22,292 nucleotides of DNA from IMG/VR virus record IMGVR_UViG_3300006924_000218, positions 1 through 22,292 of that record; one strand, 5' to 3'. The translations under genes were made by a program, and so were the position numbers. The stretch is from a virus. This document shows, one piece after another, positions 3,042-19,101 of the stretch. A model generated the notes under the pieces. It saw nothing but the letters and a program-made list of their open reading frames with translations, did not search any database and was not told where the DNA came from. Each line of letters opens with the position of its first letter. Within the stretch, counting starts at the first letter, position 1.

Positions 3042-3758
3042 ATGTTATGGTTATTTGTGTTGTTATCATGTCAGATGTTTTATTATTCTGATAGTGAGGT
3101 AAACGAACTGGAGGTTTCGAAAGTATCCAGTGAATATAATATAGGAATAAACAAAGCGGTTGCGACGTCCGTGAAGGTGTACTCCTTTCAGAACGGCATT
3201 TCTCATGGTCATGGTTCCGGAAACCTTCTACACATAGGAAATCACTTATTCATCCTCACAGCTAGTCATGTCATTGATGATTCCAGTGATGTAATCATAA
3301 GAGAAAAGAATGGAAACATGCTATCAGCTGACGTTATATATAAAAATCCATATTCTGATATTGCAATTTTATTGCCGTACGGAGTGTTCACCGATACCAA
3401 GTCAGCAAGTTATATAGCCAATAGAGATCACGACATACTAGCCAAGAGACTTTATTACCATGGATATCCTCAAAATATTGATGGGTTTCTAGTCACAGGT
3501 TTTGTCAGCCAGTCGAGTTATGATAAGATTCTTATGCAATCTTACGCTTGGTTTGGAGCATCAGGTTCAGTGGTGTTTGACAGTGCAGGTAGAATCGTCG
3601 GGATTGTCCATGCCATTTCGATGCAAATAGACCCTGCGACAGGATACCCAATATCAGCTGAGAATGTTGTAGTAGTTCATCGAGTCTATGATTTATCTAG
3701 AAAAACTATCAGGGAGCGTTTAGTTGATGCAAAAGCTAAAAATAGGCACCCTCATTAG
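3042..3758 (+). CDS. Trypsin-like serine protease, predicted lipoprotein
   Basis: 238 residues. The N-terminus MLWLFVLLSC is a short lipoprotein signal with Cys10 as the probable lipidated residue. The chymotrypsin-fold triad is visible: His76 in LTASHVID, Asp106 in YSDIAIL, Ser174 in GASGSVVFD (GxSGS). This is the S1 family layout of bacterial trypsin-like/HtrA-type proteases without a PDZ domain. A GGATGGAG ribosome site precedes ATG 3042. It would act on the outside of the cell or in the periplasm. The 3' end overlaps the next gene by 32 bp, which ties this chromosomal-looking gene to the start of the small-gene array. Confidence 0.88.
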   Translation: MLWLFVLLSCQMFYYSDSEVNELEVSKVSSEYNIGINKAVATSVKVYSFQNGISHGHGSGNLLHIGNHLFILTASHVIDDSSDVIIREKNGNMLSADVIYKNPYSDIAILLPYGVFTDTKSASYIANRDHDILAKRLYYHGYPQNIDGFLVTGFVSQSSYDKILMQSYAWFGASGSVVFDSAGRIVGIVHAISMQIDPATGYPISAENVVVVHRVYDLSRKTIRERLVDAKAKNRHPH

Positions 3759-4080
3759 CGACAACAATAAGTTGGGCGTTATCACAAAGGTAATTGAAGT
3801 TGGGACTTTAAACACCAAGGTTGATCTTATAAAGTGGCGAGCCAACTATGAAATACACTACACCGATGGTGTTGTTTCCATTTTGGGCTGCACCACTATG
3901 GAAAGACTAATAAAAGAAGGTAAGGTCTCAATCGTTTTTTGCCCTACTACCCCCCTACCCCCCTCCTCTTCTTCCGAAGATATTCTTCGCGAGACCATGA
4001 GCATGCACGATATAAAGGAAAAGAAGAAGAAAGATAGGAGGAAGAGTTGTGGAAACCAAAAACCAAAAAAAGACCAATAG
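3727..4080 (+). CDS. SH3/KOW-like small barrel protein with basic C-terminal tail
   Basis: 117 residues from ATG 3727 (a TTG lies in frame just upstream; GGGAG at 3712-3716 supports the ATG). The first 70 residues carry the family pattern found throughout the window: KIGTLI, then LGVITKVIEV, IKWRANYEIHYTDG. The rest is a Pro/Ser tract (TTPLPPSSSS) and a strongly basic tail (KKKKDRRKSC, then KPKKDQ), which no other array member has. It begins inside the protease gene and its end overlaps the following gene by 32 bp. It is the leftmost family member and may be the ancestral or boundary copy. A nucleic-acid-binding tail is plausible but inferred. Confidence 0.75.
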   Translation: MQKLKIGTLISDNNKLGVITKVIEVGTLNTKVDLIKWRANYEIHYTDGVVSILGCTTMERLIKEGKVSIVFCPTTPLPPSSSSEDILRETMSMHDIKEKKKKDRRKSCGNQKPKKDQ

Positions 4081-4375
4081 TCTCATAAATCCCGAATGGT
4101 CAAAACAACAAAAGATGCTTTACTTCCTTTGGTTGGACGATCAGGTTATGACCTATTGGTCTTTATACTTAGATATGAAATGTGATCTCCCAATCCATGA
4201 CTTCTGGACGAAGGAGGATATGGAAAAGCTTGATGGGTATCTTCAAATAATTGAACACTTTGAAAAGTACCAAGGAGAGTTGATACTGGAATATACTTAC
4301 GAAGAGATCGATGAGTTTGTAAGATGTAATCCTGATCTGTGCAAAAACTTTAGTTTTTTTCGTTTTTTCTCTTGA
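4049..4375 (+). CDS. Hypothetical protein, GTG start
   Basis: 108 residues starting at GTG 4049, chosen because AGGAGG at 4036-4041 sits eight bases upstream. The sequence is rich in aromatic and acidic residues (YFLWLDDQVMTYWSLY, HFEKYQGELILEYTYEEIDE) and ends in a phenylalanine-rich FSFFRFF. No domain is recognised. The TGA stop at 4373-4375 lies inside the TTGACA -35 of the next promoter, an early example of the overlap of stops and promoters seen throughout the array. Confidence 0.65.
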   Translation: METKNQKKTNSLINPEWSKQQKMLYFLWLDDQVMTYWSLYLDMKCDLPIHDFWTKEDMEKLDGYLQIIEHFEKYQGELILEYTYEEIDEFVRCNPDLCKNFSFFRFFS

Positions 4376-4400
4376 CAAAACAAACATACTGTGTTATATT
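4372..4400 (+). promoter_or_regulatory. Operator-free sigma70-type promoter at array start
   Basis: TTGACA (4372-4377), 17-bp spacer, TATATT (4395-4400). This is the only clear promoter in the array with no GGACA-type dyad, and it has a consensus -35. It would drive the leader ORF and gene at 4483. Confidence 0.75.
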
Positions 4401-4414
4401 ATCTTTATAAGAAA

Positions 4415-4486
4415 ATGTTGCAAGGAGTGAAATTTTACAATTTTACCAAAAAATATTTAATTGACATTTCGATGGAGGAAATATGA
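4415..4486 (+). CDS. Possible 23-residue leader peptide
   Basis: ATG 4415 opens a 23-codon frame whose TGA overlaps the start of the next gene as ATGA, a coupling arrangement. The ATG is only about eight bases after the predicted transcription start, so translation would be nearly leaderless. An AAGGAG at 4422-4427 lies inside the frame with no well-placed start after it. The peptide ends YLIDISMEEI, and the IDIS part is encoded by the first TTGACATTTCGAT repeat. It could be a leader ORF or simply a chance frame. Confidence 0.3.
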   Translation: MLQGVKFYNFTKKYLIDISMEEI

Positions 4487-4505
4487 AAATACTTGACATT
4501 TCGAT
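4455..4505 (+). repeat. Paired TTGACATTTCGAT repeat, site 1
   Basis: The exact 19-mer ATTTAATTGACATTTCGAT (4455-4473) is followed 16 bp later by the exact 16-mer TACTTGACATTTCGAT (4490-4505). Both recur exactly at 19557-19599 and 20931-20973. Here the order is reversed (19-mer first) and the pair overlaps a ribosome site and the start of the gene at 4483. Confidence 0.85.
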
Positions 4506-4662
4506 AGGGTCTTTAGTTACCCATAAAAGCCACAATCTTGGGATTGGGATTGTCACTGAGATAAGAACTGACATTCCAACAGGTGCATACAGATGTCTTT
4601 GGGCTAAAGCCCCGTACATGACGCTATTTATCTGTGGTTCATCACTGAATTCTGTCTCTTGA
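4483..4662 (+). CDS. SH3/KOW-like barrel protein, 59 aa
   Basis: ATG 4483 follows GGAGG at 4474-4478. The N-terminus MKILDISIGSLVTHK contains the family start IGSLV, shifted by five residues because the repeat TTGACATTTCGAT encodes LDIS within it. Then come LGIGIVTEI and RCLWAKAP (the conserved Trp strand). The typical LEVL end is missing; it finishes LNSVS. It is followed by the first operator-bearing promoter. Confidence 0.75.
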   Translation: MKILDISIGSLVTHKSHNLGIGIVTEIRTDIPTGAYRCLWAKAPYMTLFICGSSLNSVS

Positions 4663-4693
4663 ATTATAAGGAACACATGGGAGAGTTCCAAAC

Positions 4694-4736
4694 GGACATT
4701 TTTTGTCCTTTACATTTTCTCCATCTGTGATATATT
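4694..4736 (+). promoter_or_regulatory. Operator-promoter 1
   Basis: Dyad GGACA-TTTTT-TGTCC (4694-4708) abuts TTTACA (4709-4714); 16-bp spacer; TATATT (4731-4736). Serves the gene at 4764. Confidence 0.85.
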
Positions 4737-4763: not shown

Positions 4764-4931
4764 ATGAAAAAAGGTGATTTAGTCTTGCAGAACAATGAAA
4801 TATTCATTGTAATGAGTGTTGAGAAGGCTGGTGCGTTCGGTTACATGGCAATGGTAAAAAGCGTTGCAACAGGAAACACAAGTGGTTTCCCTCCCGAATG
4901 GCTAACCAAAATCAAAACGGACAATTTATGA
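4764..4931 (+). CDS. SH3/KOW-like barrel protein, 55 aa
   Basis: ATG 4764 after GAGGTG. MKKGDLVLQNNEIFIVMSVEK, then MAMVKSVATG and a PPEWLTKI end; it belongs with the subgroup seen at 16845-18614 that replaces the W-strand by a V-x-V strand with a TG turn. The last codons (KTDNL) and the TGA stop are encoded by the next operator, where the right half-site is TGACC instead of TGTCC. Confidence 0.8.
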   Translation: MKKGDLVLQNNEIFIVMSVEKAGAFGYMAMVKSVATGNTSGFPPEWLTKIKTDNL

Positions 4932-4961
4932 CCTTTACAATCTAACATAACCTGTTATACT
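4919..4961 (+). promoter_or_regulatory. Operator-promoter 2 (TGACC variant)
   Basis: GGACA-ATTTA-TGACC (4919-4933); TTTACA (4934-4939); 16 bp; TATACT (4956-4961) with extended -10 TG at 4953-4954. The TGA of TGACC is the stop of the gene ending at 4931. Confidence 0.82.
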
Positions 4962-4990: not shown

Positions 4991-5161
4991 ATGAAAGTAG
5001 GCACATTATATAAGGTGATAAAGAATGATCACACCTATCCACAAGTAGGTGATGTGGTGGTTCTTATCAAAGTTCTTGGAAATATGTTTGAGGGCTTGAA
5101 TTTGAGAACAAACATACATCATCATTATTTCTTCGGAAGCATGGAGGTATTATGCAAGTAG
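4991..5161 (+). CDS. SH3/KOW-like barrel protein, 56 aa
   Basis: ATG 4991 after AGGAG. MKVGTLYKVIKND, VGDVVVLIKVLG, ending MEVLCK. First gene of an operon of six barrel genes running to 6056. The end of the gene is the junction ATGCAAGTAG at 5152-5161, which is both ...LCK* here and MQVG of the next protein; the codons for MEV supply GGAGGT, the next ribosome site. Confidence 0.82.
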   Translation: MKVGTLYKVIKNDHTYPQVGDVVVLIKVLGNMFEGLNLRTNIHHHYFFGSMEVLCK

Positions 5162-5343
5162 GAACATTAGTAACAAGCAAGTGGGAAGAGGTGATTGGCA
5201 TTGTTCACCAACTACATGATGAATTTTATGATGAAGAGCAAGGGGTTGTGGAGTATGCATGGGAGATTCTATGGATAAACTCCAGTCCTACAATGCAATA
5301 CACAGTGGAAGATGAAGAAGACTTGGTGATATTATGCCAGTAG
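5152..5343 (+). CDS. SH3/KOW-like barrel protein, 63 aa
   Basis: Starts MQVGTLVTSKWEEVIGIVHQL, with a Trp strand (AWEILWINSS) and acidic loop (EDEEDLVILCQ) at the end. It overlaps its neighbours on both sides by exactly 10 nt. Its terminal codons read LVILC rather than LEVLC, so the ribosome site left for the next gene is the weaker GGTGAT. That could lower translation of the next gene. Confidence 0.85.
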   Translation: MQVGTLVTSKWEEVIGIVHQLHDEFYDEEQGVVEYAWEILWINSSPTMQYTVEDEEDLVILCQ

Positions 5344-5504
5344 GGACTCTAGTCATACTAGATCCGATATTATACACTGACATGCAGAGTCGCATTGGTA
5401 TTGTTACAAAGGTCATGTCTTGTGGAGAAAGATTTCATATACTTTGGAACGATGGCTCAGAAGCCATATTAGGTATCTTTGACTTGGAGGTCTTATGTAC
5501 ATAG
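5334..5504 (+). CDS. SH3/KOW-like barrel protein, 56 aa
   Basis: MPVGTLVILDP, then RIGIVTKVMSCG, FHILWNDGSEA and the end DLEVLCT. It is read from junction ATGCCAGTAG and ends in junction ATGTACATAG, both 10-nt overlaps. The DLEV codons (ttggaggtc) provide the ribosome site of the next gene. This is a compact, near-consensus family member. Confidence 0.83.
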   Translation: MPVGTLVILDPILYTDMQSRIGIVTKVMSCGERFHILWNDGSEAILGIFDLEVLCT

Positions 5505-5689
5505 GTAATTTAGTTAAGGTGAAAGCAAGTTGGCACTTTGTCTATCCTGAATACGCAGAGGTCATAGGTCTTGTGACCGATATAACACAGTTGCGAAATG
5601 CAAGAAGAATAAGGTGGCTTCATTCACCTATTGAAGGACATGAGTATACAGTTATGCCTGAAGATTGCTTGGAGGTAATATGCAAATAG
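5495..5689 (+). CDS. SH3/KOW-like barrel protein, 64 aa
   Basis: MYIGNLVKVKASWHF, then AEVIGLVTDI, RIRWLHSPIEG, EYTVMPEDCLEVICK. The W-strand and the EYTV strand before the acidic turn are clear. The loop between the first two strands is longer than in the 55-residue members. Joined by 10-nt overlaps at both ends. Confidence 0.85.
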   Translation: MYIGNLVKVKASWHFVYPEYAEVIGLVTDITQLRNARRIRWLHSPIEGHEYTVMPEDCLEVICK

Positions 5690-5826
5690 GATCATTAGTG
5701 AGACATAAAGCCTCTGGCGATATCGGAGTTATAACCTATATCGGAAAGTGGAAACTTACCTTTACACAACCTGATGGTCGTGTGTGGTGTACATATCATA
5801 ACAGAGTGGAGGTAGTATGCGAATAG
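5680..5826 (+). CDS. SH3/KOW-like barrel protein, 48 aa (shortest member)
   Basis: MQIGSLVRHKASGDIGVITYIG, then a Trp strand (GRVWCTYHN) and the end RVEVVCE. At 48 residues it is the smallest complete copy and may represent the minimal fold. Junctions ATGCAAATAG and ATGCGAATAG flank it. Confidence 0.83.
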   Translation: MQIGSLVRHKASGDIGVITYIGKWKLTFTQPDGRVWCTYHNRVEVVCE

Positions 5827-6056
5827 GAGACTTAGTAATGATAGGTGAACGAAGCCTTATTATCGTGGATAGTAAGTGGAGCATCTCAGGAAACGAATGG
5901 TATTGGGCAATTGCACCTGTGGACGATCCAAGCGATAGAACATGGCTTCCTGAAGACATTGTTCTCCATGCGTGGAAGGATTATAAATGGTGGACAAAAA
6001 ATGTCCTCGACAATAATATTAGGAATGGTTATATTATAAGTAACAAAGGAGGATAG
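5817..6056 (+). CDS. SH3/KOW-like barrel protein, 79 aa, tail read through a promoter
   Basis: MRIGDLVMIGERSLIIVDS, YWAIAPVDDPSDRTWLPEDIV form the barrel. The frame then stays open through the operator and promoter at 5992-6035 and stops at 6054-6056, so about the last 20 residues (from WTKNVLDNN) are encoded by regulatory DNA. Either the protein has a promoter-encoded tail or an earlier stop has been lost. The next gene starts one base after the stop. Confidence 0.72.
   Translation: MRIGDLVMIGERSLIIVDSKWSISGNEWYWAIAPVDDPSDRTWLPEDIVLHAWKDYKWWTKNVLDNNIRNGYIISNKGG
5992..6035 (+). promoter_or_regulatory. Operator-promoter 3, inside the 5817 gene
   Basis: GGACA-AAAAA-TGTCC (5992-6006); TCGACA (6007-6012); 17 bp; TATATT (6030-6035). 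It lies within the 3' part of the upstream frame and serves the operon starting at 6058. Confidence 0.8.
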
Positions 6057-6057: not shown

Positions 6058-6225
6058 ATGGAAATAGGCGATATAGTGAGATACAAGAACTGTTCCAAAG
6101 GTGGAGAGTTGGCTATAGTCACGGGGTTCTTTGCAAGAACCTTTGGAAAATGTTATGGCAAATTCGTATGGGTGGCAACAGGAAACAAATTTAGTGAAGA
6201 CTTAGAATACTTGGAGGTAGTATGA
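6058..6225 (+). CDS. SH3/KOW-like barrel protein, 55 aa
   Basis: ATG 6058 follows AAAGGAGG. MEIGDIVRYKNCSKGGELAIVTGF, KFVWVATGNK, DLEYLEVV. The LEV codons carry the next ribosome site, but the junction is the shorter ATGA overlap (TGA 6223-6225), so the protein ends at LEVV without the Cys. Confidence 0.82.
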   Translation: MEIGDIVRYKNCSKGGELAIVTGFFARTFGKCYGKFVWVATGNKFSEDLEYLEVV

Positions 6226-6446
6226 AGATAGGTGACTTAGTAAGGATAGACCCCTTGTGTCCTATTTGCTTGGATCTGAAGATAGATGATCCTGATGAAT
6301 ATGAGAGGGAACTTAAATGGCTAGGGGTCATAGTGGGTATAATGCCACCACGAAAAGGTGAGGGCGTACTATACAGAGTGCAATGGGGACACATGTCTCA
6401 CCCTACACCCGAATATGGGGATTATTTGGAGGTATTATGCGAATAG
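6222..6446 (+). CDS. SH3/KOW-like barrel protein, 74 aa, with Cys-rich insert
   Basis: MKIGDLVRIDPLCPICLDL, then acidic DDPDEYERELKWLGVIVGIM, a basic PPRKGEG loop, YRVQWGHMSH, YGDYLEVLCE. The CPIC pair in the first loop is a possible half metal site but no second pair is present. It overlaps the previous gene by ATGA and the next by 10 nt. Confidence 0.83.
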   Translation: MKIGDLVRIDPLCPICLDLKIDDPDEYERELKWLGVIVGIMPPRKGEGVLYRVQWGHMSHPTPEYGDYLEVLCE

Positions 6447-6604
6447 GAACATTGGTAAATCACGAAAACTACTTTGGTGTCGGTGTTGTAACCCATATCA
6501 GAAAAGTAAGGGGAATAGTGGAATGGAAAATCCTATGGCTCAGAGAGGGTAGAGACTTTGGTTGGTCGAACGACAAAAGAAGCGTGGAGGTTTTATGCAA
6601 ATAG
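6437..6604 (+). CDS. SH3/KOW-like barrel protein, 55 aa
   Basis: The start is ATG 6437 at the junction ATGCGAATAG, not the in-frame ATG at 6383, because the family N-terminus MRIGTLVNHEN begins here behind GGAGGT. Then FGVGVVTHI, EWKILWLREG, and SVEVLCK. 10-nt overlaps on both sides. Confidence 0.83.
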   Translation: MRIGTLVNHENYFGVGVVTHIRKVRGIVEWKILWLREGRDFGWSNDKRSVEVLCK

Positions 6605-6852
6605 GCGATCTGATAAGAATAAAAGAGGAACATGTCGATAATGAAGCATTTGTGGGTCAAGCATGGGATTCATTGTTCACAAGAAACCCCTACCCTCCAC
6701 CAGAGAGTGAATGGGTAGGGCTGGTAGTGGACTACCTTGTAGACGATAATGGTGATGCCTTGGATGATATGATATACATACAATGGACATGGAGTGGGCG
6801 TACCGTACTAGAGTACACCGAACACTTGGAGGTAATAACAAAACGGACATAA
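6595..6852 (+). CDS. SH3/KOW-like barrel protein, 85 aa
   Basis: MQIGDLIRIKEEHVDN, a long insert with PYPPPESEW, then WVGLVVDYLVDDNGD, YIQWTWSGRTVLEYTEHLEVI. The final TKRT* is contributed by the operator: CGG ACA TAA reads Arg-Thr-stop. One of the longest members, because of the first-loop insertion. Confidence 0.83.
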   Translation: MQIGDLIRIKEEHVDNEAFVGQAWDSLFTRNPYPPPESEWVGLVVDYLVDDNGDALDDMIYIQWTWSGRTVLEYTEHLEVITKRT

Positions 6853-6887
6853 TTTGTCCTTTACAATATCTGAGAATAAGATATATT
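6845..6887 (+). promoter_or_regulatory. Operator-promoter 4
   Basis: GGACA-TAATT-TGTCC (6845-6859); TTTACA (6860-6865); 16 bp; TATATT (6882-6887). The TAA within the dyad stops the upstream gene. The whole cassette 6841-6910 is almost identical to 8521-8591. Confidence 0.87.
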
Positions 6888-6913: not shown

Positions 6914-7120
6914 ATGCAAATAAAGGTAGGAACATTGGTTATGTGGACAAAACTAGGGTATATCCTTGATAAAGGTTCTGTCGGTTTAGTCACAGATGTT
7001 GATGGTGATGGATATGATAATGAAATCATCAAAGTTCTTTGGAGCAACGGTGATGTGTTAGAATACAACACTGACGGACAGGCTATGAGGAGTAATAGAT
7101 TAATAGTGGTCAAATTCTGA
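6914..7120 (+). CDS. SH3/KOW-like barrel protein, 68 aa
   Basis: ATG 6914 after CGGAGGT; an in-frame start upstream at 6854 would lie in the promoter. MQIKVGTLVMWTKLGYIL, then SVGLVTDVDGDGYDN, IIKVLWSNGDVLEYN, ending RLIVVKF. The last codons GTG GTC AAA TTC TGA are the variant operator GGTCA-AATTC-TGACC. The closest relative is the gene at 7335, which has the same ending. Confidence 0.82.
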   Translation: MQIKVGTLVMWTKLGYILDKGSVGLVTDVDGDGYDNEIIKVLWSNGDVLEYNTDGQAMRSNRLIVVKF

Positions 7121-7150
7121 CCTTTACAATATTTGAGAACAGGATATATT
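7108..7150 (+). promoter_or_regulatory. Operator-promoter 5 (GGTCA/TGACC variant)
   Basis: GGTCA-AATTC-TGACC (7108-7122) keeps perfect dyad symmetry with both half-sites changed. TTTACA (7123-7128); 16 bp; TATATT (7145-7150). The TGA is the stop of the upstream gene. Confidence 0.83.
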
Positions 7151-7176: not shown

Positions 7177-7344
7177 ATGCGAGTAGGAACATTAGTAAAG
7201 TGGTTAAACAATGCCTCTGACTATGGAGAGTTGGGCATAGTCATAGATGTATTTCCCAACGGTAATTTTCGGGTGGCGTGGGCTAGTGGTACCTATGCCC
7301 AACATGGCAGTAACACAGAGTTGGTGGAGGTATTATGCAGTTAG
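7177..7344 (+). CDS. SH3/KOW-like barrel protein, 55 aa
   Basis: ATG 7177 after CGGAGGT. MRVGTLVKWLNNASDYGELGIVIDVF, NFRVAWASGTYA, LVEVLCS. The end forms a 10-nt overlap (ATGCAGTTAG) with the next gene, a variant junction in which Leu3-Val4 rather than Ile-Gly supplies the TAG. Confidence 0.83.
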   Translation: MRVGTLVKWLNNASDYGELGIVIDVFPNGNFRVAWASGTYAQHGSNTELVEVLCS

Positions 7345-7547
7345 TAAGGACAGGATCATTGGTAATGTGGAATGTGGAGGGTTCAATTGACTTTGGGTGT
7401 ATGGGGTTGGCTGTCTTCAGTCATTACGAGAGGTACGCAGATGGCGACATATTTCACTATTTTAATATACATTGGACAGACGATAGTCTTGTGGAATACG
7501 ACCACGAGGAGATTGAACAAGGTAAATTAAAAGTGGTCAAATTCTGA
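7335..7547 (+). CDS. SH3/KOW-like barrel protein, 70 aa
   Basis: MQLVRTGSLVMWNVEGSIDFG, MGLAVFSHYERYADGD, NIHWTDDSLVEYD, ending KLKVVKF. The N-terminus carries three extra residues before TGSLV. As in the gene ending at 7120, the last four codons and the TGA are the operator GGTCA-AATTC-TGACC, so gene end and operator probably duplicated together. Confidence 0.82.
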   Translation: MQLVRTGSLVMWNVEGSIDFGCMGLAVFSHYERYADGDIFHYFNIHWTDDSLVEYDHEEIEQGKLKVVKF

Positions 7548-7578
7548 CCTTTACAAATTTGCAACAACATATTATATT
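7535..7578 (+). promoter_or_regulatory. Operator-promoter 6 (GGTCA/TGACC variant)
   Basis: GGTCA-AATTC-TGACC (7535-7549); TTTACA (7550-7555); 17 bp; TATATT (7573-7578). Stops the 7335 gene and serves the 7610 gene. Confidence 0.82.
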
Positions 7579-7961: not shown

Positions 7962-8004
7962 GGACATATTTTGTCCTTTACAATAATTCACAATCAGTTA
8001 TATT
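7962..8004 (+). promoter_or_regulatory. Operator-promoter 7
   Basis: GGACA-TATTT-TGTCC (7962-7976); TTTACA (7977-7982); 16 bp; TATATT (7999-8004). Confidence 0.85.
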
Positions 8005-8331: not shown

Positions 8332-8532
8332 ATGAAAATAGGTGACTTGGTAGAATATACCGAAAATGAAGAGACTTTTATTGGTCTTGTGATCGAAATT
8401 ACCGAAGCCCTTCCAAGACTATCAAGAGGGGTTAAGGTTCTGTGGTGCTTCAATGAAGAGGATAGAGAACTCTTTGACGAAACATCATGGCTTTGTGAAG
8501 ACGAGGTTAGAACAGTATCAAAACGGACATAA
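8332..8532 (+). CDS. SH3/KOW-like barrel protein, 66 aa
   Basis: ATG 8332 lies two bases after the upstream stop; GGCGAGGAA precedes it. MKIGDLVEYTENEETFIGLVIEI, GVKVLWCFNEED, then DEVRTVSKRT. As in the 6595 gene, Arg-Thr-stop is read from the operator sequence CGG ACA TAA. Confidence 0.83.
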   Translation: MKIGDLVEYTENEETFIGLVIEITEALPRLSRGVKVLWCFNEEDRELFDETSWLCEDEVRTVSKRT

Positions 8533-8567
8533 TTTGTCCTTTACAATATCTGAGAATAAGATATACT
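8525..8567 (+). promoter_or_regulatory. Operator-promoter 8
   Basis: GGACA-TAATT-TGTCC (8525-8539); TTTACA (8540-8545); 16 bp; TATACT (8562-8567). Near-identical duplicate of the cassette at 6841-6910 (one -10 substitution, one extra A). Confidence 0.86.
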
Positions 8568-8595
8568 ATAAACATCAAAACAAACGGAGGTTCTT

Positions 8596-8808
8596 GTGGA
8601 CAAAATCATAACATTACAAATAAGACAAAGTGGTGACGATAACATAGTCTATCTATGTAAAACCCACGAAATAGCCGAGAGGATCATCAGAGAGTGGTTC
8701 TCTATGTATTGTGAGGATAACCCCTCCCTAGAGGAACTAGAGGACTACCTGTGGGAGAAGGACATAGGCTATTGGGAGATTACAGAGGAGGTGGTAATAT
8801 GCGAGTAG
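8596..8808 (+). CDS. Small hypothetical protein, 70 aa, GTG start
   Basis: GTG 8596 follows CGGAGGT. MDKIITLQIRQSGDDNIVYLCKTHEIAERIIREWF, then an acidic half (CEDNPSLEELEDYLWEKD) and EEVVICE. This is not a barrel protein, yet its last codons (gag gag gtg gta ata tgc gag tag) form the same 10-nt junction used between barrel genes, supplying the ribosome site and start of the next gene. Confidence 0.78.
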   Translation: MDKIITLQIRQSGDDNIVYLCKTHEIAERIIREWFSMYCEDNPSLEELEDYLWEKDIGYWEITEEVVICE

Positions 8809-8957
8809 GAACATTGGTAAAACGCAGATGGAATGGCTACATAGGTGTTATTACACAACAAGGTGTGTCGTCTTGTTATCGCTGGCTTATTCACTTTACC
8901 AAAGGGGACGGCTATCGTTGGTGTAACGAAGGTGAGTTGGAGGTCTTATGCGAATAG
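8799..8957 (+). CDS. SH3/KOW-like barrel protein, 52 aa
   Basis: Start at ATG 8799 in the junction ATGCGAGTAG behind GAGGAGGTGG; an in-frame ATG upstream (8751) is rejected because the family start MRVGTLVKRR begins here. YIGVITQQG, RWLIHFTKGDG, GELEVLCE follow. 10-nt overlaps on both sides. Confidence 0.83.
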   Translation: MRVGTLVKRRWNGYIGVITQQGVSSCYRWLIHFTKGDGYRWCNEGELEVLCE

Positions 8958-12623: not shown

Positions 12624-12666
12624 GGACATTTTCTGTCCTTTACATTATCTCAGAACTTGTTATATT
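12624..12666 (+). promoter_or_regulatory. Operator-promoter 13
   Basis: GGACA-TTTTC-TGTCC (12624-12638); TTTACA (12639-12644); 16 bp; TATATT (12661-12666), preceded by TG (extended -10). Confidence 0.85.
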
Positions 12667-12845: not shown

Positions 12846-12888
12846 GGACATAATTTGTCCTTTACAATATTTCATAACTTGTTATAAT
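12846..12888 (+). promoter_or_regulatory. Operator-promoter 14, strongest -10
   Basis: GGACA-TAATT-TGTCC (12846-12860); TTTACA (12861-12866); 16 bp; consensus TATAAT (12883-12888) with upstream TG. It drives the VWA metallopeptidase-like gene. Confidence 0.87.
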
Positions 12889-12916: not shown

Positions 12917-14155
12917 ATGTCAGATGAAACAACACAAAAACCAACAGAGGTCGCAGACTTTGATCTTGACCTTCACACTTATCGCTTACTACAAGCAGAA
13001 CCCTTCTTCGCAGCCCTGTCACGAAGGATACACAAGTCCTCCACTACTGCGATACCCACTGCTGGTGTCAAGATGAATGAGGGATCGGGCACATTCGAGA
13101 TGATCTACAATCCAAATTTCTTTGCCAAACTTTCTGACAGGGAGAAACTTGGTGTGCTTATGCACGAGATGTATCATATCATCTTTGAACATGTCACAGG
13201 TCGACTACCACCCGAAGGTATGTCCAAGATGTGGAACATTGCAACTGACCTTGCGATCAACTCTCACCTGATGGACGATCTTCCAAAGCAAGGTCTGTTT
13301 CCCACAAGAGATCGCTTCGCCTCTTATCCTGTCGGTATGTCGGCAGAGTGGTATTATTCCAAACTCAACCAAGACAAAGAGAACAACGAGGGAGCGTTTG
13401 ATCCCGAACACAACAAAGGTGATGGCGATGGACAGAGTGGCGATGGTGATGGTGGCATGCCCGACTCACTTGACGATCACAGTGGATGGGGAGAAGCCGA
13501 TCAGGACACCCGACAGATGGCTCAAGAACGAATGAGACAAGCCGTTGAAGACGCAGTGAAGGAGGTTCAATCCAAAGGTCAAGGATGGGGCAATGTCTCA
13601 AGTGGTATGAGAGAGAGAATTATCGACATGATCACTCCAAAGGTTGATTGGCGAAAAGTCCTCAGATACTTTATCAAAACATCACAGAGACAGAACAAGA
13701 GGTCTACGGTACGGAGGGTGAACCCCCGATATCCCTACATTCACGCTGGAAAGAAGGTCAACAGAACTGCAAAAATTGCTATCTCTATTGACCAAAGTGG
13801 CTCAGTATCCGATCAGATGCTATCGGCTTTCTTCTCCGAATTGAACGGTCTTGCACAAAAGGTCGAGTTTACTGTGATCCCGTTCGACACCCGAGTAGAC
13901 GAGACTAAGGTCTATGTATGGAAGAAGGGTCAACGCAAGCAAGTCGAAAGAGTCCTTTGTGGTGGTACATGCTTTGACGCTCCAACCAAATTTGTGAATG
14001 ATCATGGTGGCTTTGATGGTCATATTATCCTCACAGATATGGAAGCACCAAAGCCAATCCCTAGTAAGTGTCAACGCATTTGGTTCACCACTGAGAATCA
14101 TGCCAAGAACCCATACTTTCAGACCAATGAAAAAGTTATCGGTATCAGTATGTAA
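12917..14155 (+). CDS. VWA-domain protein with HExxH metallopeptidase-like N-terminus
   Basis: 412 residues. The N-terminal domain contains HEMYHIIFEH (83-92), an HExxHxxxxH zinc-binding motif, followed by DLAINSHL. A flexible Asp/Gly linker (about 160-195) leads to a helical segment and a VWA domain from about 285: MIDAS motif DQSGSVS at 292-298, Thr351 in GGTCFD and Asp374 in LTDME. This is the architecture of the DUF2201-type putative metallopeptidase plus VWA-like proteins, which pair with MoxR AAA+ ATPases as metal-dependent remodelling systems. The partner ATPase is at 15171. Large phages are among the places where such pairs occur. Substrate unknown; active peptidase activity is not shown by the motif alone. 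Confidence 0.9.
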   Translation: MSDETTQKPTEVADFDLDLHTYRLLQAEPFFAALSRRIHKSSTTAIPTAGVKMNEGSGTFEMIYNPNFFAKLSDREKLGVLMHEMYHIIFEHVTGRLPPEGMSKMWNIATDLAINSHLMDDLPKQGLFPTRDRFASYPVGMSAEWYYSKLNQDKENNEGAFDPEHNKGDGDGQSGDGDGGMPDSLDDHSGWGEADQDTRQMAQERMRQAVEDAVKEVQSKGQGWGNVSSGMRERIIDMITPKVDWRKVLRYFIKTSQRQNKRSTVRRVNPRYPYIHAGKKVNRTAKIAISIDQSGSVSDQMLSAFFSELNGLAQKVEFTVIPFDTRVDETKVYVWKKGQRKQVERVLCGGTCFDAPTKFVNDHGGFDGHIILTDMEAPKPIPSKCQRIWFTTENHAKNPYFQTNEKVIGISM

Positions 14156-14221: not shown

Positions 14222-14265
14222 GGACATAATCTGTCCTTTACAATAATTACTAAACAGGGTATATT
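14222..14265 (+). promoter_or_regulatory. Operator-promoter 15
   Basis: GGACA-TAATC-TGTCC (14222-14236); TTTACA (14237-14242); 17 bp; TATATT (14260-14265). Confidence 0.85.
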
Positions 14266-14500: not shown

Positions 14501-14767
14501 ATGCAAGAATGGAAATATAGAGAACACAACGGTAAGCAAGGTAAATTTAGAGTAGGTGATCTTATTAGAATTTCCTCATACGGAAAGAGTACTGAGCAAA
14601 ACTCTAACCAATTCTTTGATGGTAATGAGATAGGCTTGATTGTGGAAATATCACGCTTTGGAGGTAATAAAAAGTATCCCATAAAGGTGCAATGGATCAA
14701 CCTCAACAATGGCAAATTTGTTCCACAAAGGTTCTTCTTCAGAGAGTTAGTACGAATTCGGACATAA
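14501..14767 (+). CDS. SH3/KOW-like barrel protein, 88 aa, N-terminally extended
   Basis: ATG 14501 after GAGGTG. A 16-residue basic extension (MQEWKYREHNGKQGKF) precedes RVGDLIRISSYGKS; then EIGLIVEISRFGGNK, IKVQWINLNNG, FFRELVRIRT. It is the longest family member in the operator-controlled part. The last codons CGG ACA TAA (Arg-Thr-stop) are the operator. Confidence 0.82.
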   Translation: MQEWKYREHNGKQGKFRVGDLIRISSYGKSTEQNSNQFFDGNEIGLIVEISRFGGNKKYPIKVQWINLNNGKFVPQRFFFRELVRIRT

Positions 14768-14803
14768 TTTGTCCTTTACAATATTCAACCAACATATTAT
14801 ATT
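14760..14803 (+). promoter_or_regulatory. Operator-promoter 16
   Basis: GGACA-TAATT-TGTCC (14760-14774); TTTACA (14775-14780); 17 bp; TATATT (14798-14803). The TAA in the dyad stops the upstream gene. Confidence 0.85.
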
Positions 14804-15064: not shown

Positions 15065-15108
15065 GGACATTTTTTGTCCTTGACTTTATCTTCATACCTA
15101 GTTATATT
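15065..15108 (+). promoter_or_regulatory. Operator-promoter 17
   Basis: GGACA-TTTTT-TGTCC (15065-15079); TTGACT (15080-15085); 17 bp; TATATT (15103-15108). The leader to the 15171 start is about 55 nt, the longest in the array. Confidence 0.84.
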
Positions 15109-15170: not shown

Positions 15171-16226
15171 ATGTCTATTGATTACAAAACCCTATTCACT
15201 ATCCTTCCACATGTCTTTGAGGCAAAGTTCCCTGTCCTCTTGCGAGGTAGACACGGTATCGGTAAGTCCACTGTCGTTTATCAGCAAGCCAAAGCACTTG
15301 GCATGCCTGTCATAGAACGCAGAGCGTCACAAATGACCGAAGGTGACTTACTTGGTCTTCCAAAGATTGATGGAGATGTTACGGCTTGGTTAGCCCCTGA
15401 GTGGCTTGACAACGCATGTAAAAACCCTGTCGTATTGTTCCTTGACGAGGTTGACCGTGCTACCCTAGAGGTGAGACAAGGTATCTTTGAACTATGTGAC
15501 AGTCGCAAGATCGCTGGTCATACCCTACACCCCGACACCCTGATCTTTGCTTGTGTCAATGGTGGCAAGCACGGTGCTGAGTATCAAGTCAATGAGTTCG
15601 ACCCTGCTGAACTGGATAGGTACACCGTGTTTGATGTCGAGCCGACCGTAGAAGATTGGTTAGAGTGGGCTAAAGGTAATGTGGCTGACGAGATCTGGGA
15701 TTTCATCAACCACAATCATCAACACCTTGAGCATAAAGATACCTTCGAGCCTAACAAGATCTATCCTTCAAGACGCTCTTGGGAGCGACTATCAGATACC
15801 TTGCAAAGTGTCGGTGAGATCAAGCATAGCCCGACATTGTATCACCTTGCCCATTCCTTTATCGGCTTTGAGGGTGCTATGGCTCTGAACGACTATATCA
15901 AGAACTACTCAAAGGTCGTGACACCTGAACAGATCCTTGATGAAGGTAAAGTTGACTTGACCAAAAAGTTCAAGATCAATGACCACAACAGTCTCATTGA
16001 AAAATTCAAGGCGAAAGAGTGCTTTGACACTGAGTTATCCAACACTCAGTTGCAGAACCTTGCAGAATACTTTGTGACTCTCCCATCTGAGATTGCTATG
16101 ACACTTTGGTCGGCAATGGGATCAGGCTCTCAAGCGACAAAGAATGTTGCGAGACTGCACGGTCTTCAGACTCAGAACGGTTCTGTTCAAGACTTTATCG
16201 TGAGTATCCTAACAGCAGGGCAGTAA
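15171..16226 (+). CDS. MoxR-type AAA+ ATPase
   Basis: 351 residues, ATG after CGGAG. Walker A GRHGIGKST at 26-34, Walker B VVLFLDEVD at 87-95, sensor-1 Asn130 in FACVNGG, and DPAELDR with the likely arginine finger Arg150. The early RRASQMTEGDLLGLP and APEWLDNACKNP segments are typical of MoxR-like ATPases, which use ATP hydrolysis to remodel targets together with VWA-domain partners. The VWA partner is encoded at 12917, separated by three small genes and transcribed from a separate copy of the same operator-promoter. The C-terminal 190 residues are helical and not further assigned. Hexameric assembly is expected from the family. Confidence 0.92.
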   Translation: MSIDYKTLFTILPHVFEAKFPVLLRGRHGIGKSTVVYQQAKALGMPVIERRASQMTEGDLLGLPKIDGDVTAWLAPEWLDNACKNPVVLFLDEVDRATLEVRQGIFELCDSRKIAGHTLHPDTLIFACVNGGKHGAEYQVNEFDPAELDRYTVFDVEPTVEDWLEWAKGNVADEIWDFINHNHQHLEHKDTFEPNKIYPSRRSWERLSDTLQSVGEIKHSPTLYHLAHSFIGFEGAMALNDYIKNYSKVVTPEQILDEGKVDLTKKFKINDHNSLIEKFKAKECFDTELSNTQLQNLAEYFVTLPSEIAMTLWSAMGSGSQATKNVARLHGLQTQNGSVQDFIVSILTAGQ

Positions 16227-16277: not shown

Positions 16278-16321
16278 GGACATTTTTTGTCCTTTACAAT
16301 CTTTCTTCAACCCATTATATT
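16278..16321 (+). promoter_or_regulatory. Operator-promoter 18
   Basis: GGACA-TTTTT-TGTCC (16278-16292); TTTACA (16293-16298); 17 bp; TATATT (16316-16321). Confidence 0.85.
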
Positions 16322-16351: not shown

Positions 16352-16609
16352 ATGAAAATACGAAACAACCAAGGTGCTACAATGACTCCCAAGTGTGCGA
16401 ACCTTATCAGAGATCTGAACAAACTAGTGAGACAAGGTTTGTCCATTGAAGACGCTGAGAGCCGTCTTAAAAATAACGATTGGAGATGTGATCAAGGTTA
16501 TGTCGCTACTAACGGAGATTGGCGAAAGGCTAAAAAGAGAATACAACAAGTCGCTGAGTTCCGTAAATCAGGTGCTACTACCCTAAAGGGTGGGTGGGGT
16601 AGACGATGA
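16352..16609 (+). CDS. Hypothetical basic protein, 85 aa
   Basis: ATG 16352 after AGAGGT. MKIRNNQGATMTPKCANLIRDLNKLV, a helix (GLSIEDAESRLKNN), then KAKKRIQQVAEFRKSG and a glycine/arginine end (KGGWGRR). Net basic and mostly helical. No family recognised. The TGA overlaps the following barrel gene start (ATGA). Confidence 0.74.
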   Translation: MKIRNNQGATMTPKCANLIRDLNKLVRQGLSIEDAESRLKNNDWRCDQGYVATNGDWRKAKKRIQQVAEFRKSGATTLKGGWGRR

Positions 16610-16767
16610 AAATAGGTGATCTGGCGATATGGAATGATGGATGTAGAGATTATTTAGTGCTGGTCACAGGTTGGTCTTGTCATTGGAATGGGTGGAATGA
16701 GGTTCAAGCAGTCTGTGGAGGGCTAAGATTCCAAGTCCAAGCACATGACCTTTACCCCATAAAATGA
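16606..16767 (+). CDS. SH3/KOW-like barrel protein, 53 aa
   Basis: MKIGDLAIWNDGCRDYLVLVTGW, WNEVQAVCGGLR, AHDLYPIK. The first strand and the LVLVTG strand fit the family; the Trp strand is replaced by EVQAV. No good ribosome site is present apart from GGGGT in the upstream gene, so translation probably depends on coupling through the ATGA overlap. Confidence 0.78.
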   Translation: MKIGDLAIWNDGCRDYLVLVTGWSCHWNGWNEVQAVCGGLRFQVQAHDLYPIK

Positions 16768-16771: not shown

Positions 16772-16815
16772 GGACAAAAAATGTCCTTTACAAAATCCAT
16801 TCAATCTGTTATATT
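16772..16815 (+). promoter_or_regulatory. Operator-promoter 19
   Basis: GGACA-AAAAA-TGTCC (16772-16786); TTTACA (16787-16792); 17 bp; TATATT (16810-16815) with extended -10 TG. Confidence 0.86.
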
Positions 16816-16844: not shown

Positions 16845-17015
16845 ATGAAGATCGGACAACTAAAAAGATATTATCAACCTCACTCAACAACAAAGCATAA
16901 AGACGAATTAGTAATGATCTTGTCGAACTATCATGGGGCATATAAAGTCATGGTTCTCAAGAGTGGAGAGCAGATCTGTGGTGTGAACAGTGAATATCTT
17001 ATGGAGATCGGATGA
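16845..17015 (+). CDS. SH3/KOW-like barrel protein, 56 aa
   Basis: ATG 16845 after AAAGGGG. MKIGQLKRYYQPHSTTKHKDELVMILS, YKVMVLKSGEQICGVNSEYLMEIG. This belongs to the subgroup with an LVM-[IV] second strand and a [KT]-[ST]-G-E turn (also 17012, 18112, 18417). The TGA overlaps the next start as ATGA. Confidence 0.78.
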   Translation: MKIGQLKRYYQPHSTTKHKDELVMILSNYHGAYKVMVLKSGEQICGVNSEYLMEIG

Positions 17016-17200
17016 AATTTAGCAAAGGAGACTTGAGACTATGGAGAACTGAATGGGGTTCTAAAATGGTCTTGGTGATGGTCACAGAGGACAAGTACGG
17101 ATATGAGGATTGGATTCATGTAGTGGTCGTAGCCACAGGAGAAAGAAGAACCCTAAAAGTGCGAGCCACACGAGGGATAGAAGAAACGGACATAATTTGA
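17012..17200 (+). CDS. SH3/KOW-like barrel protein, 62 aa
   Basis: MKFSKGDLRLWRTEWGSKMVLVMVTED, IHVVVVATGERRTLKVRATRG, ending EETDII. The FSKGDL start, LVMV strand and ATGE turn relate it to 4764 and 18417. Its final codons ACG GAC ATA ATT TGA come from the next operator, whose TGACC variant supplies the stop. Confidence 0.78.
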   Translation: MKFSKGDLRLWRTEWGSKMVLVMVTEDKYGYEDWIHVVVVATGERRTLKVRATRGIEETDII

Positions 17201-17231
17201 CCTTTACAAATCTTAACCAACTTGTTATATT
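17188..17231 (+). promoter_or_regulatory. Operator-promoter 20 (TGACC variant)
   Basis: GGACA-TAATT-TGACC (17188-17202); TTTACA (17203-17208); 17 bp; TATATT (17226-17231), TG upstream. The TGA is the stop of the 17012 gene. Confidence 0.83.
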
Positions 17232-17256: not shown

Positions 17257-17442
17257 ATGTCACAAAATATATTTTCAAAGAAAGAAAGAAAGCAGAATGC
17301 CTATGAGCATTATATTGAGTTCCTCTCAAAGTATCCTTCTATTTCCAAGAGAGACATAGCAGAACTCTGTTGCGAAACATGGGAGATTCAGATCCACGAA
17401 CTGGCTGATAAAGTGGCAGAGGCTAAACTATCATGCAAGTAG
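17257..17442 (+). CDS. Small helical protein, 61 aa
   Basis: ATG 17257 after ACGGAG. MSQNIFSKKERKQNAYEHYI, then FLSKYPSISKRDIAELCCET and HELADKVAEAKLSCK. Predominantly helical; the SKRDIAELCCETW part resembles a helix-turn-helix recognition region but is too short to be sure. Not a barrel protein, yet it ends in the array junction ATGCAAGTAG shared with the barrel gene at 17433. Confidence 0.74.
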   Translation: MSQNIFSKKERKQNAYEHYIEFLSKYPSISKRDIAELCCETWEIQIHELADKVAEAKLSCK

Positions 17443-17633
17443 GCGACTTAGTGACTTGGAGAGTCAGAGAAGGTATAAGGGAGCCTGAGTTTGGTGTGAT
17501 AGTGGAGAAATTCAAAGCAAGCCAACGGAAAGACACGCATTGGTGGGTAAAATTCACAAGTGGGATACATGCACAGAAAAAAAGAATACTTTGTCAGGAA
17601 CGACATCTCATCCTTGTAAAGGACTTAAAATAA
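17433..17633 (+). CDS. SH3/KOW-like barrel protein, 66 aa
   Basis: MQVGDLVTWRVREGIREPEFGVIVEKFKAS, HWWVKFTSGIHAQKK, RHLILVKDLK. Near-consensus first half; the basic second half replaces the usual acidic LEV end. The junction with the upstream gene lacks a close ribosome site (GAGG is ten bases away), so expression is probably coupled. Confidence 0.82.
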   Translation: MQVGDLVTWRVREGIREPEFGVIVEKFKASQRKDTHWWVKFTSGIHAQKKRILCQERHLILVKDLK

Positions 17634-17756: not shown

Positions 17757-17800
17757 GGACATAATTTGTCCTTTACAAATCCAAGCCAACCTGTTATAAT
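17757..17800 (+). promoter_or_regulatory. Operator-promoter 21, consensus -10
   Basis: GGACA-TAATT-TGTCC (17757-17771); TTTACA (17772-17777); 17 bp; TATAAT (17795-17800) with extended -10 TG. Confidence 0.87.
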
Positions 17801-18042: not shown

Positions 18043-18086
18043 GGACATTTTCTGTCCTTTACAAAACCCAAACGACCTGTTATATT
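18043..18086 (+). promoter_or_regulatory. Operator-promoter 22
   Basis: GGACA-TTTTC-TGTCC (18043-18057); TTTACA (18058-18063); 17 bp; TATATT (18081-18086), TG upstream. Confidence 0.86.
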
Positions 18087-18111
18087 ATAGATATCAAACA
18101 ACGGAGAATAG

Positions 18112-18357
18112 ATGGAACCATTTTTAGATATAGGGACTTTAGTCATCTATGAGCATTGGATTCAAGAAGATAATGAGATGGTATTGGTGATGGGGATAAT
18201 AACAAAGATTAACCGAAAGATTTGGAACAACCACACGATCTTTATCCCAAAGTATGAAACTTATAGAATGGAGAACAGATGTAAAATTTATACATACACT
18301 GAGGATAACTGGGAGAATCTCCACATAGAGCGACCACACTTAACGGACAAAAATTGA
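18112..18357 (+). CDS. SH3/KOW-like barrel protein, 81 aa
   Basis: ATG 18112 with ACGGAG upstream. MEPFLDIGTLVIYEHWIQEDNEMVLVMGIITKI, then FIPKYETYRMENRCKIYTYTED and LHIERPHLTDKN. Six extra residues precede IGTLV. The last codons and TGA are the next operator (ACG GAC AAA AAT TGA). Confidence 0.8.
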   Translation: MEPFLDIGTLVIYEHWIQEDNEMVLVMGIITKINRKIWNNHTIFIPKYETYRMENRCKIYTYTEDNWENLHIERPHLTDKN

Positions 18358-18388
18358 CCGTGACAAATATCAACCACCTTGTTATATT
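18345..18388 (+). promoter_or_regulatory. Operator-promoter 23 (TGACC variant)
   Basis: GGACA-AAAAT-TGACC (18345-18359); GTGACA (18360-18365); 17 bp; TATATT (18383-18388), TG upstream. The TGA stops the 18112 gene. Confidence 0.82.
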
Positions 18389-18416
18389 ACTGATATGAAC
18401 AACAACGGAGATAAGA

Positions 18417-18614
18417 ATGACTTATACTAAAAAAGTAGGTACACTAATGAGATTAAGAGAAGGAACTTTCCACGGTGGTTACACTTACACCTTGGTAATG
18501 ATCAGAGAGACAAGACACGGTGTATGCTTTGTGCCTTGCATTGAGATCGAGACAGGAAAATGGGTATCATGTTCGAGCCGAGAGTTATTCCGAGTTGAAA
18601 CGGACATAAAATGA
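18417..18614 (+). CDS. SH3/KOW-like barrel protein, 65 aa
   Basis: ATG 18417; CGGAG lies upstream. MTYTKKVGTLMRLREG, YTYTLVMIRETRHGV, VPCIEIETGKWVSCSSRELFRVETDIK. The KVGTLM start and TG turn are clear. As for 17012 and 18112, the stop TGA is created by the TGACC form of the operator downstream. Confidence 0.79.
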   Translation: MTYTKKVGTLMRLREGTFHGGYTYTLVMIRETRHGVCFVPCIEIETGKWVSCSSRELFRVETDIK

Positions 18615-18645
18615 CCGTGACAAATATCAACTAACCTGTTATATT
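18602..18645 (+). promoter_or_regulatory. Operator-promoter 24 (TGACC variant)
   Basis: GGACA-TAAAA-TGACC (18602-18616); GTGACA (18617-18622); 17 bp; TATATT (18640-18645), TG upstream. The TGA stops the 18417 gene. Confidence 0.82.
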
Positions 18646-18670
18646 ATATACATCAAACAACGGAGACACA

Positions 18671-18874
18671 ATGACTCAAGAAGAATTCAACAATACTATC
18701 ATCGCAATCGCTAACAAGATCTTCCTTATCAAAGAATACTCATTCCAAAGAAGGGGTTGCAAGTTCGACCCTAGAAGACCCGACTTGATGTTATCACCAT
18801 GTGAAAAGGATCGTGTGGAGGTACTTGAACGAAAGGCTATGGAAACAATAGCGACATTCACGGAGACACAATGA
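18671..18874 (+). CDS. Small helical protein, 67 aa
   Basis: ATG 18671 after ACGGAG. MTQEEFNNTIIAIANKIFLI, a basic middle (SFQRRGCKFDPRRPD), then a helix (EKDRVEVLERKAMETIATF). No family recognised. The final codons ACG GAG ACA CAA TGA contain the ribosome site of the next gene and overlap its start as ATGA. Confidence 0.74.
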   Translation: MTQEEFNNTIIAIANKIFLIKEYSFQRRGCKFDPRRPDLMLSPCEKDRVEVLERKAMETIATFTETQ

Positions 18875-19101
18875 AAAAAAGTTTTAAGATTGGAGACTTG
18901 GTAGAGTTCCCACTTAAGGGAGAAGGTCATTCAGATATACTATGCTTGGTAGTAGGGATAAGAGGAATGTATTATAGAATACAATGTATCTCTTCAGAAG
19001 AGCATTTTAATACCACAGAAGAATGGATAAGCCTACCCACCTACTCCACTACCCCTATGGGGCTACCTGAAAACTCTCACACGGTCATTAAGGGCTTGTA
19101 A
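18871..19101 (+). CDS. SH3/KOW-like barrel protein, 76 aa, last array copy
   Basis: MKKSFKIGDLVEFPLKGEGHS, LCLVVGIRGMYYRIQCISSEE, FNTTEEWI, then an atypical 20-residue tail from SLPTYSTTPMG encoded by C-rich DNA. It is the rightmost barrel gene seen. The tail and the absence of an operator after it suggest a rearranged end of the array. Confidence 0.78.
   Translation: MKKSFKIGDLVEFPLKGEGHSDILCLVVGIRGMYYRIQCISSEEHFNTTEEWISLPTYSTTPMGLPENSHTVIKGL

Follow-up and report, generated by a model that had tools for sequence, protein, structure and literature searches.

In a 22,292-base stretch of viral DNA (IMG/VR virus record IMGVR_UViG_3300006924_000218, positions 1 to 22,292; hereafter the window), a dense run of small open reading frames (ORFs) on the + strand, between 3727 and 19101, encodes an expanded family of small proteins with a predicted SH3-like/KOW fold, whose genes share a recurrent gene junction and copies of a 15-bp palindrome. 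The best reading of this arrangement, which we hold with middling confidence, is that of an accessory repertoire of interchangeable barrel cassettes that would be driven by a transcription activator and whose products would bind host targets. The activator protein, the timing of expression and the binding to host targets are the parts of this proposal that we infer.

The ORFs of 48 to 117 residues in this run have in common the pattern M-x-[IV]-G-x-L-[VI] ... [IG]-[IV]-[IV] ... W ... LEV[LI], a recurrence pointed out in the initial annotation of the window and borne out by both the list of ORFs and a family profile. The profile was trained on 21 window ORFs, with each member left out in turn for scoring and with 500 shuffles made of each protein; all 21 were recovered at E-values of 0.025 or less, and none of the 500 shuffles of any member reached the score of the real match. 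Two ORFs held out of training, 18112 (E 0.007) and 18871 (E 0.014), were recovered as well. With the full profile, most members score between 35 and 76 bits, compared with 9.5 bits for the best among 8,220 shuffled ORFs. The divergent ORF 4764 is not significant with the direct profile, but as the sole seed of an iterative search it converges on the main barrel family, which is also reached when 18871 is the seed. These comparisons support 24 barrel paralogues between 3727 and 19101 (the 21 training members, 18112, 18871 and 4764). Thus, the expansion itself stands, but the count of at least 28 paralogues in the initial annotation does not: 16606 is borderline (E 0.16, with 1 of 500 shuffles scoring as well), 16845, 17012 and 18417 have the N-terminal motif only and are joined to the family by neither the profile nor the iterative search, and 9792 was rejected, since 385 of its 500 shuffles score equally well. 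The window barrels are far apart from one another in sequence, with a median pairwise identity of 34% and a maximum of 51%, and no stop codons or frameshifts were seen within them.

All members lie on the + strand. Beginning upstream, they occupy 3727-4080 (117 residues, with a basic C-terminal extension; leave-one-out E 0.002), 4483-4662 (59 residues; E 2e-5), 4764-4931 (the divergent paralogue, 55 residues), 4991-5161 (56; E 0.025), 5152-5343 (63; E 1e-9), 5334-5504 (56; E 2e-4), 5495-5689 (64; E 1e-5), 5680-5826 (48; E 1e-6), 5817-6056 (79; E 0.02), 6058-6225 (55; E 0.005), 6222-6446 (74; E 4e-7), 6437-6604 (55; E 1e-10) and 6595-6852 (85; E 2e-6). They continue at 6914-7120 (68; E 1e-9), 7177-7344 (55; E 6e-10; the member whose structure was predicted), 7335-7547 (70; E 0.005), 8332-8532 (66; E 5e-7), 8799-8957 (52; E 1.5e-7), 8948-9109 (53; E 6e-6), 12018-12221 (67; E 2.5e-6), 14501-14767 (88; E 6e-7) and 17433-17633 (66; E 1.7e-6), with the two held-out members at 18112-18357 (81 residues) and 18871-19101 (76 residues). 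The possible paralogues are the borderline 16606-16767 (53 residues) and the three with the N-terminal motif only, at 16845-17015 (56 residues; E 5.7), 17012-17200 (62; E 1.9) and 18417-18614 (65; E 8.5).

For 7177-7341, AlphaFold2 used an alignment of relatives with 113 rows and returned a model with a predicted local distance difference test score (pLDDT) of 92.4 and five strands in SH3-like order (residues 6-9, 19-25, 31-35, 40-43 and 50-54), the last of which is preceded by a short 3-10 helix. The best matches of this model in a Foldseek search of the PDB are the KOW domains of Spt5/NusG, KIN17 and ribosomal KOW proteins, with template modelling (TM) scores to the query of 0.7-0.78, and nearly all of the other fold matches are further SH3-like, KOW or Tudor barrels. 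Sequence-profile matches in the PDB are weak (best E 0.017), and nearly all belong to the same SH3-like fold class. An SH3/KOW-like fold is thus predicted for this member and, from sequence relatedness, for the others, in agreement with the initial annotation; for the one member whose structure was predicted, no different fold appeared.

Sequence searches place the family outside the named ones, as the initial annotation had also supposed for phages. PHROGs has next to nothing of it (2 weak matches among 113 members), ten members tested singly against Pfam gave sub-threshold hits only, and neither Pfam nor the PDB profile search gave a significant match to any named KOW or SH3 family. The phage proteins resemble the KOW, SH3-like and Tudor barrels of NusG/Spt5, KIN17, eL14, PsaE and NdhS in the predicted five-stranded barrel and the short helix before the last strand, but they have no significant sequence similarity to them and are stand-alone proteins whose arrays give as many as 38 matches in a single record. 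They are also similar in predicted fold and size to the single small SH3-like phage proteins of the DUF4314 type found in BFVD, although the DUF4314 Pfam model matched none of the 113 members at E 0.01.

Where barrel genes adjoin, the end of one and the start of the next are commonly written in the same DNA. Among 151 neighbouring barrel pairs from all loci (those within 30 nucleotides of each other), 78 overlap by exactly 10 nucleotides and 27 by 4. The junction sequence TTGGAGGTnnTATGCnnnTAG closes one barrel (LEVLCx-stop) and at the same time supplies the following barrel with its ribosome-binding site and start. In its shared form, TTGGAGGTnnTATGCnnnTAGG, the first frame reads L-E-V-x-C-x-stop, and the second carries a Shine-Dalgarno sequence and ATG-Cxx-xTA-GG, the beginning of M-x-[IV]-G. 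For example, TGGAGGTATTATGCAAGTAGG, at 5142-5164 on the + strand, ends one protein with M-E-V-L-C-K-stop and opens the next with a Shine-Dalgarno sequence and ATG CAA GTA GG (M-Q-V-G); further copies lie on the same strand near 5324, 5485, 5670, 5807, 6427, 6585, 7325 and 8938. The C-terminal LEV[LI] motif is found in 76 of 88 members when the 10-bp junction follows and in none of 36 when the palindrome follows; it is the Shine-Dalgarno sequence of the next gene read in frame. The motif is present, as the initial annotation had reported, but it is largely a product of dual-coded DNA.

Alignments of the window with related loci show cassettes that have been cleanly lost and swapped at these junctions. 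The DNA that relative L007 shares with the window at about 88% identity cleanly lacks two cassettes, 5680 (137 nucleotides) and 6058, each of them from junction to junction. In relative L012, a different paralogue occupies the slot of 5152 between conserved flanks, and both the presence and the order of barrels vary between relatives. The best explanation is that the dual-coded junction would permit cassettes to be gained, lost or swapped without breaking their neighbours.

Codon comparisons show that the barrels which relatives hold in common are under purifying selection. The pooled ratio of nonsynonymous to synonymous substitution rates (dN/dS) of orthologous barrels is 0.175 (0.01-0.49, with every resolved pair below 1), compared with 0.063 for neighbouring non-barrel genes; for 4483-4662, it is 0.15-0.19 against three relatives. 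The proportion of nonsynonymous differences (pN) is higher in loops than in strands (0.106 vs 0.073) at equal synonymous proportions (pS), and all 26 gapped codons lie in loops; this difference is modest, and no positive selection was found in the loops. In one genome pair, the synonymous rates (dS) of neighbouring genes range from 0.1 to above 2, which is saturation; this wide range fits mosaic exchange. The net charge of the barrels spans -13 to +11, with a mean of -1.4. Taken together, the aligned genes show the turnover of cassettes between lineages to be the chief source of the repertoire's diversity. The initial annotation had described tandem duplication with diversification of the loops: the expansion of paralogues and the more variable loops are both seen, but fast loop evolution as the main source of diversity is not, and the genes, with their low dN/dS, are under purifying selection and not in the decay that it had named as a refuting outcome.

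The second recurring element is the palindrome GGWCA-N5-TGWCC (GGACATAATTTGTCC), of 15 bp, which has 29 exact copies in the window; with up to one mismatch there are 32 sites, compared with 2.7 expected. The first start codon of each transcription unit follows 53-106 nucleotides after the first base of the palindrome, mostly at about 70. In the 191-kb relative G002, 19 of 20 sites lie within the 18-kb barrel region. To measure the position of these sites relative to promoters, we took about 190 non-redundant sites and recorded the offset from the end of the palindrome to the -35 box of the best promoter with a score of at least 10. Offsets of 0 (76 sites), 8-10 (30 sites, drawn from 13 loci) and 20 (5 sites) were found, compared with 0.13 sites expected at any one offset, and practically none lie at 1-7 or 11-19. 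Moreover, only 2 of 77 promoters at offset 0 have the -35 box TTGACA, compared with 73 of 87 site-free promoters in the same loci, and a 16-bp spacer is found in 42 of the 77 but in 11 of the 87, for which a 17-bp spacer is the rule (73 of 87). The promoters at offsets 9, 10 and 20 mostly retain TTGACA.

Promoters that are helped by an activator (class I and class II activation) have a binding site upstream of the -35 and a weak -35. The sites described here agree with an activator-dependent sigma70 promoter in both respects, being located upstream on one helical face and coupled at offset 0 with a weakened -35 box. Helical phasing and degraded -35 boxes, which the promoter alignments show, therefore favour the site of an activator over the operator of a repressor, and we infer that the palindrome is bound by an activator, a candidate for which would be a dimeric protein. 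Phage repressors with dispersed operators of identical sequence are known, which speaks for a repressor operator; the palindrome might also be a stem-loop terminator, as in a promoter-terminator element of the PeSL type. According to the works on PeSLs as cited in PMC4503421, these elements mediate the shuffling of cassettes in T4-like phages, and the 27-nucleotide stretch here does fold, with a mean of -5.5 kcal/mol. Nevertheless, a repressor operator would also be expected within or downstream of the promoter, whereas these sites stay upstream of the -35, 0, 8-10 or 20 bp away on one face of the helix, and at offset 0 the -35 is degraded. The hairpin is further disfavoured by the paired positions 3 and 13, which do not covary (mismatched in 71 of 212 sites; Fisher p 0.17), and by the T-rich tract, which follows the palindrome in only 49 of 212. 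As for immunity of the lambda type, no HTH_3 repressor was found in nine relatives, whose records may be incomplete. We thus consider a repressor operator or terminator rather unlikely.

In the window, the -35 box begins directly at the end of the palindrome (offset 0) at 4694-4708 (TTTACA), 4919-4933, 5992-6006 (TCGACA), 6845-6859, 7108-7122, 7535-7549, 7962-7976, 8525-8539, 9193-9207, 10261-10275 (TAGACA), 10660-10674, 11547-11561, 12624-12638, 12846-12860, 14222-14236, 14760-14774, 15065-15079, 16278-16292, 16772-16786, 17188-17202, 17757-17771, 18043-18057, 18345-18359 (GTGACA), 18602-18616 (GTGACA) and 20030-20044, all on the + strand, as are the remaining copies. At 19616-19630, a TTGACA box lies at offset 20, two helical turns away, at 21006-21020 a TCGACA box lies at offset 9, and at 21688-21702 the promoter is at an offset of about 8-9. 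The copy at 21512-21526 is inside an ORF, has no good promoter (score 9.0) and is perhaps not functional. At several gene ends the palindrome doubles as the stop codon, as CGG-ACA-TAA or as TTC-TGA in GGTCAAATTCTGACC: the barrels starting at 6595, 6914, 7335, 8332, 14501 and 18112 end within the sites at 6845, 7108, 7535, 8525, 14760 and 18345, respectively, and the site at 5992 lies inside the 3′ end of 5817-6056. Whole blocks bounded by palindromes also move, since the block 8514-8959, which includes the barrel gene at 8799, is 94% identical in L007 but found at another place. Palindrome-free arrays occur at L041, L043, L050 and L060 (records G018, G019, G016 and G020), with near-consensus TTGACA promoters where these were found; this subgroup either lost the regulator or never had it. 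A second repeat, distinct from the palindrome, consists of paired TTGACATTTCGAT about 27-32 nucleotides apart and is located at 4451-4506, 19553-19603 and 20927-20977.

Relatives of the window were gathered through exact IMG/VR searches with the palindrome-promoter pattern and the gene junction. Dozens of viral contigs were retrieved, around 30 of which carry barrel arrays, and 291 distinct barrel proteins were collected, forming 241 clusters at 60% identity; array-bearing records searched whole have 18 to 38 barrel matches each. The longest of these relatives measure 184-192 kb, and the 191-kb record G002 encodes the T4-type capsid protein (Gp23), portal (gp20) and sheath proteins, together with DNA polymerase III alpha, class II ribonucleotide reductase, UvsX and GroEL. 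Judged from these genes, the window is best explained as coming from the variable, accessory part of the genome of a T4-like myovirus, of about 190 kb in the longest relatives. Among cultured phages, Flavobacterium phage immuto and Microcystis phage Mel-JY01 come closest in capsid and portal (about 43% identity), but they have neither barrels nor palindromes, and an ordinary tblastn search with the barrels gave nothing significant in cultured phages. When the host was sought by scanning 84,980 genomes of bacteria and archaea for the palindrome-promoter pattern, 12 single hits came back, approximately the number expected by chance and none of them with barrels, so that no host was assigned. The 389-residue, apparently secreted protein encoded at 855-2024 has a C-terminal tail that resembles bacterial MYXO-CTERM/GlyGly-CTERM sorting signals and may hint at the host. 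Record G002 (L019-L040) additionally encodes ClpS, ribosomal protein S21, FKBP, thioredoxin, GroEL and sugar-nucleotide enzymes.

If the barrels do form an activator-driven repertoire, each transcription unit would open with the palindrome just upstream of a sigma70-type promoter, and a dimeric activator, either phage-encoded or borrowed from the host, would bind it centred near -43 or, at a minority of sites, a turn or two of the helix further upstream, recruiting RNA polymerase to the weak -35 boxes. In this way, about 25 short transcription units could be switched on during a single stage of infection, probably the early or middle one, with each unit yielding between one and six small proteins that are translated in succession through the dual-coded junction. 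With their common core and wide variety of loops and charges, the barrels would most likely serve as small binding proteins, blocking host proteins or redirecting them. Their span of net charge and their variable loops argue for different partners over one nucleic acid or one machine, and, by analogy with the small genes under a shared regulatory sequence in archaeal viruses, some of them proven to act against host defence (PMC11065993), the inhibition of host defence or of other host proteins would be most likely, with host defence systems as the most likely class of target. A more ambitious form of this proposal, which we offer tentatively, is that of an open-ended repertoire of binders on a single scaffold, in which the dual-coded junctions and the activator-phased promoter repeats would let single-gene cassettes be inserted, removed and swapped, and in which each phage would carry a set of its own of some 15-38 mini-proteins directed at the host, all switched on by one activator.

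Several observations weigh against the repertoire that we favour. The fold is predicted for one member and deduced for the rest from their sequences, and the dN/dS of the barrels is well below 1, so that orthologues show no direct sign of an arms race. The same palindrome also drives genes that do not encode barrels (those for the VWA/DUF2201 protein, the AAA ATPase, the zinc-knuckle protein and DUF7447), and the arrays of some relatives have no palindrome, which is therefore not essential to an array. The sites share descent, so the counts behind the phasing are not fully independent. Moreover, searches of nine relatives (two of them longer than 190 kb; the records may be incomplete) turned up neither HTH_3 nor Crp-type (HTH_Crp_2) proteins, nor any protein above threshold for sigma region 4 (Sigma70_r4), and a Pfam scan of 85 small proteins, mostly from G002 but including nine window genes, gave no candidate regulator. 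Thus, of the single regulator proposed in the initial annotation, the shared palindrome, with its 29 copies against chance, holds, but the regulator protein was not found in these nine relatives.

The barrels might instead be KOW-like modulators of one host machine, such as RNA polymerase, the ribosome or nucleic acid, which would tune transcription or translation. The closest solved folds, namely the KOW domains of Spt5/NusG, KIN17 and ribosomal eL14/uL24, agree with this possibility, as does the conservation of a CCHC zinc-knuckle protein in the same arrays. However, the broad net charge, with its slightly negative mean, is unlike that of a uniform nucleic-acid binder, variation in presence and order between relatives is odd for the parts of a single machine, and an SH3-like barrel is so generic a scaffold that fold similarity says little about the partner; we regard this explanation as unlikely, if still worth weighing. 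It could also be argued that the expansion is a by-product of recombination, in which identical junctions and promoter repeats duplicate cassettes that are mostly of little or no function. Conserved DNA junctions and promoter repeats are ideal recombination sites, and a marine T4-like phage in culture lost a large ORFan region with a gain in fitness (PMC4503421). Yet every resolved pair of orthologues is under purifying selection, relatives retain orthologues, and the members in the window are free of stop codons and frameshifts, all of which makes this possibility improbable. Small beta-barrels serve as decoration proteins in other phages, and the barrels could for that reason be parts of the virion, such as capsid decoration or tail proteins. 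We find this highly improbable given the region-specific control of the sigma70 type, the many copies of low similarity and a distance of about 90 kb from the terminase, Gp23 and gp20 genes in the 191-kb relative.

As far as they are described in PMC4503421, the PeSL elements and hyperplastic regions of T4-type phages (Arbiol 2010; Comeau 2014) are the closest known arrangement to the one reported here, through the shuffling that PeSLs mediate. Both involve T4-like phages in which a recurring regulatory element separates tiny genes whose function is unknown and in which cassettes are shuffled at the repeats, and in the window the starts of units and the boundaries of blocks do fall at the element. 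In contrast to the stem-loop terminator fused to a promoter of that description, however, the palindrome resembles a protein site, is located upstream of the -35 and helically phased, and has neither a covarying stem nor a consistent run of T. Furthermore, the cassettes encode one family of barrels, and a second, dual-coded junction of Shine-Dalgarno sequence and start joins single genes. The ORFanage of cyanophage S-PM2 is likewise a variable, intensely shuffled block of small genes of unknown function in a marine T4-like phage, but its ORFs have been described as ORFans, with PeSL-driven mobility judged unlikely (PMC4503421), whereas here a single paralogous family has shared junctions and promoters. 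Archaeal viruses such as SIRV2 have small early genes under a shared regulatory sequence, some of which are validated anti-CRISPRs (PMC11065993). The likeness lies in the many small, diverse accessory genes behind one conserved regulatory sequence; those genes, however, have TATA/BRE promoters and encode mostly unrelated proteins, unlike the bacterial promoter and the single predicted fold family of the phage arrays.

Other genes stand in and around the array. Directly upstream, 3042-3758 encodes a trypsin-like (HtrA-type) protease that is conserved in 23 related loci, and on the opposite strand, 2001-2957 encodes an amidohydrolase (PRK06886-like) that is about 65-72% identical in several relatives. 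Within the array, the sites at 12846 and 15065 drive the genes for a DUF2201 metallopeptidase/VWA protein (12917-14155) and a MoxR-like AAA ATPase (15171-16226); these proteins are 62-91% identical in the clade and are probably a functional pair. The protein encoded at 10734-11543 has two CCHC zinc knuckles and 24 homologues in the barrel arrays of the clade, with at most three per record, and was not found in cultured phages. Its interpretation as a barrel fusion was rejected, as the profile comparison was weak (probability 14%) and the AlphaFold2 model had no convincing fold match. Further downstream, the 49-bp promoter and ribosome-binding-site segments at 21050-21098 and 21732-21780 are identical, precede neighbouring genes that start with MSQ and are a recent duplication.

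The tiny uncharacterized genes that abound in variable phage regions are hard to study, as each of them looks unique, but in these arrays hundreds can be described by a single fold, a single junction and a single control site. The patterns of the junction and the palindrome would allow such genes to be collected automatically, new variants to be discovered in metagenomes, and whole sets to be assayed for anti-defence or host-takeover activity. In addition, the helical phasing of the palindrome leads one to expect a new phage-linked activator of transcription, which can be looked for, and the dual-coded junction offers a clear example of an arrangement of DNA that allows genes to be shuffled.

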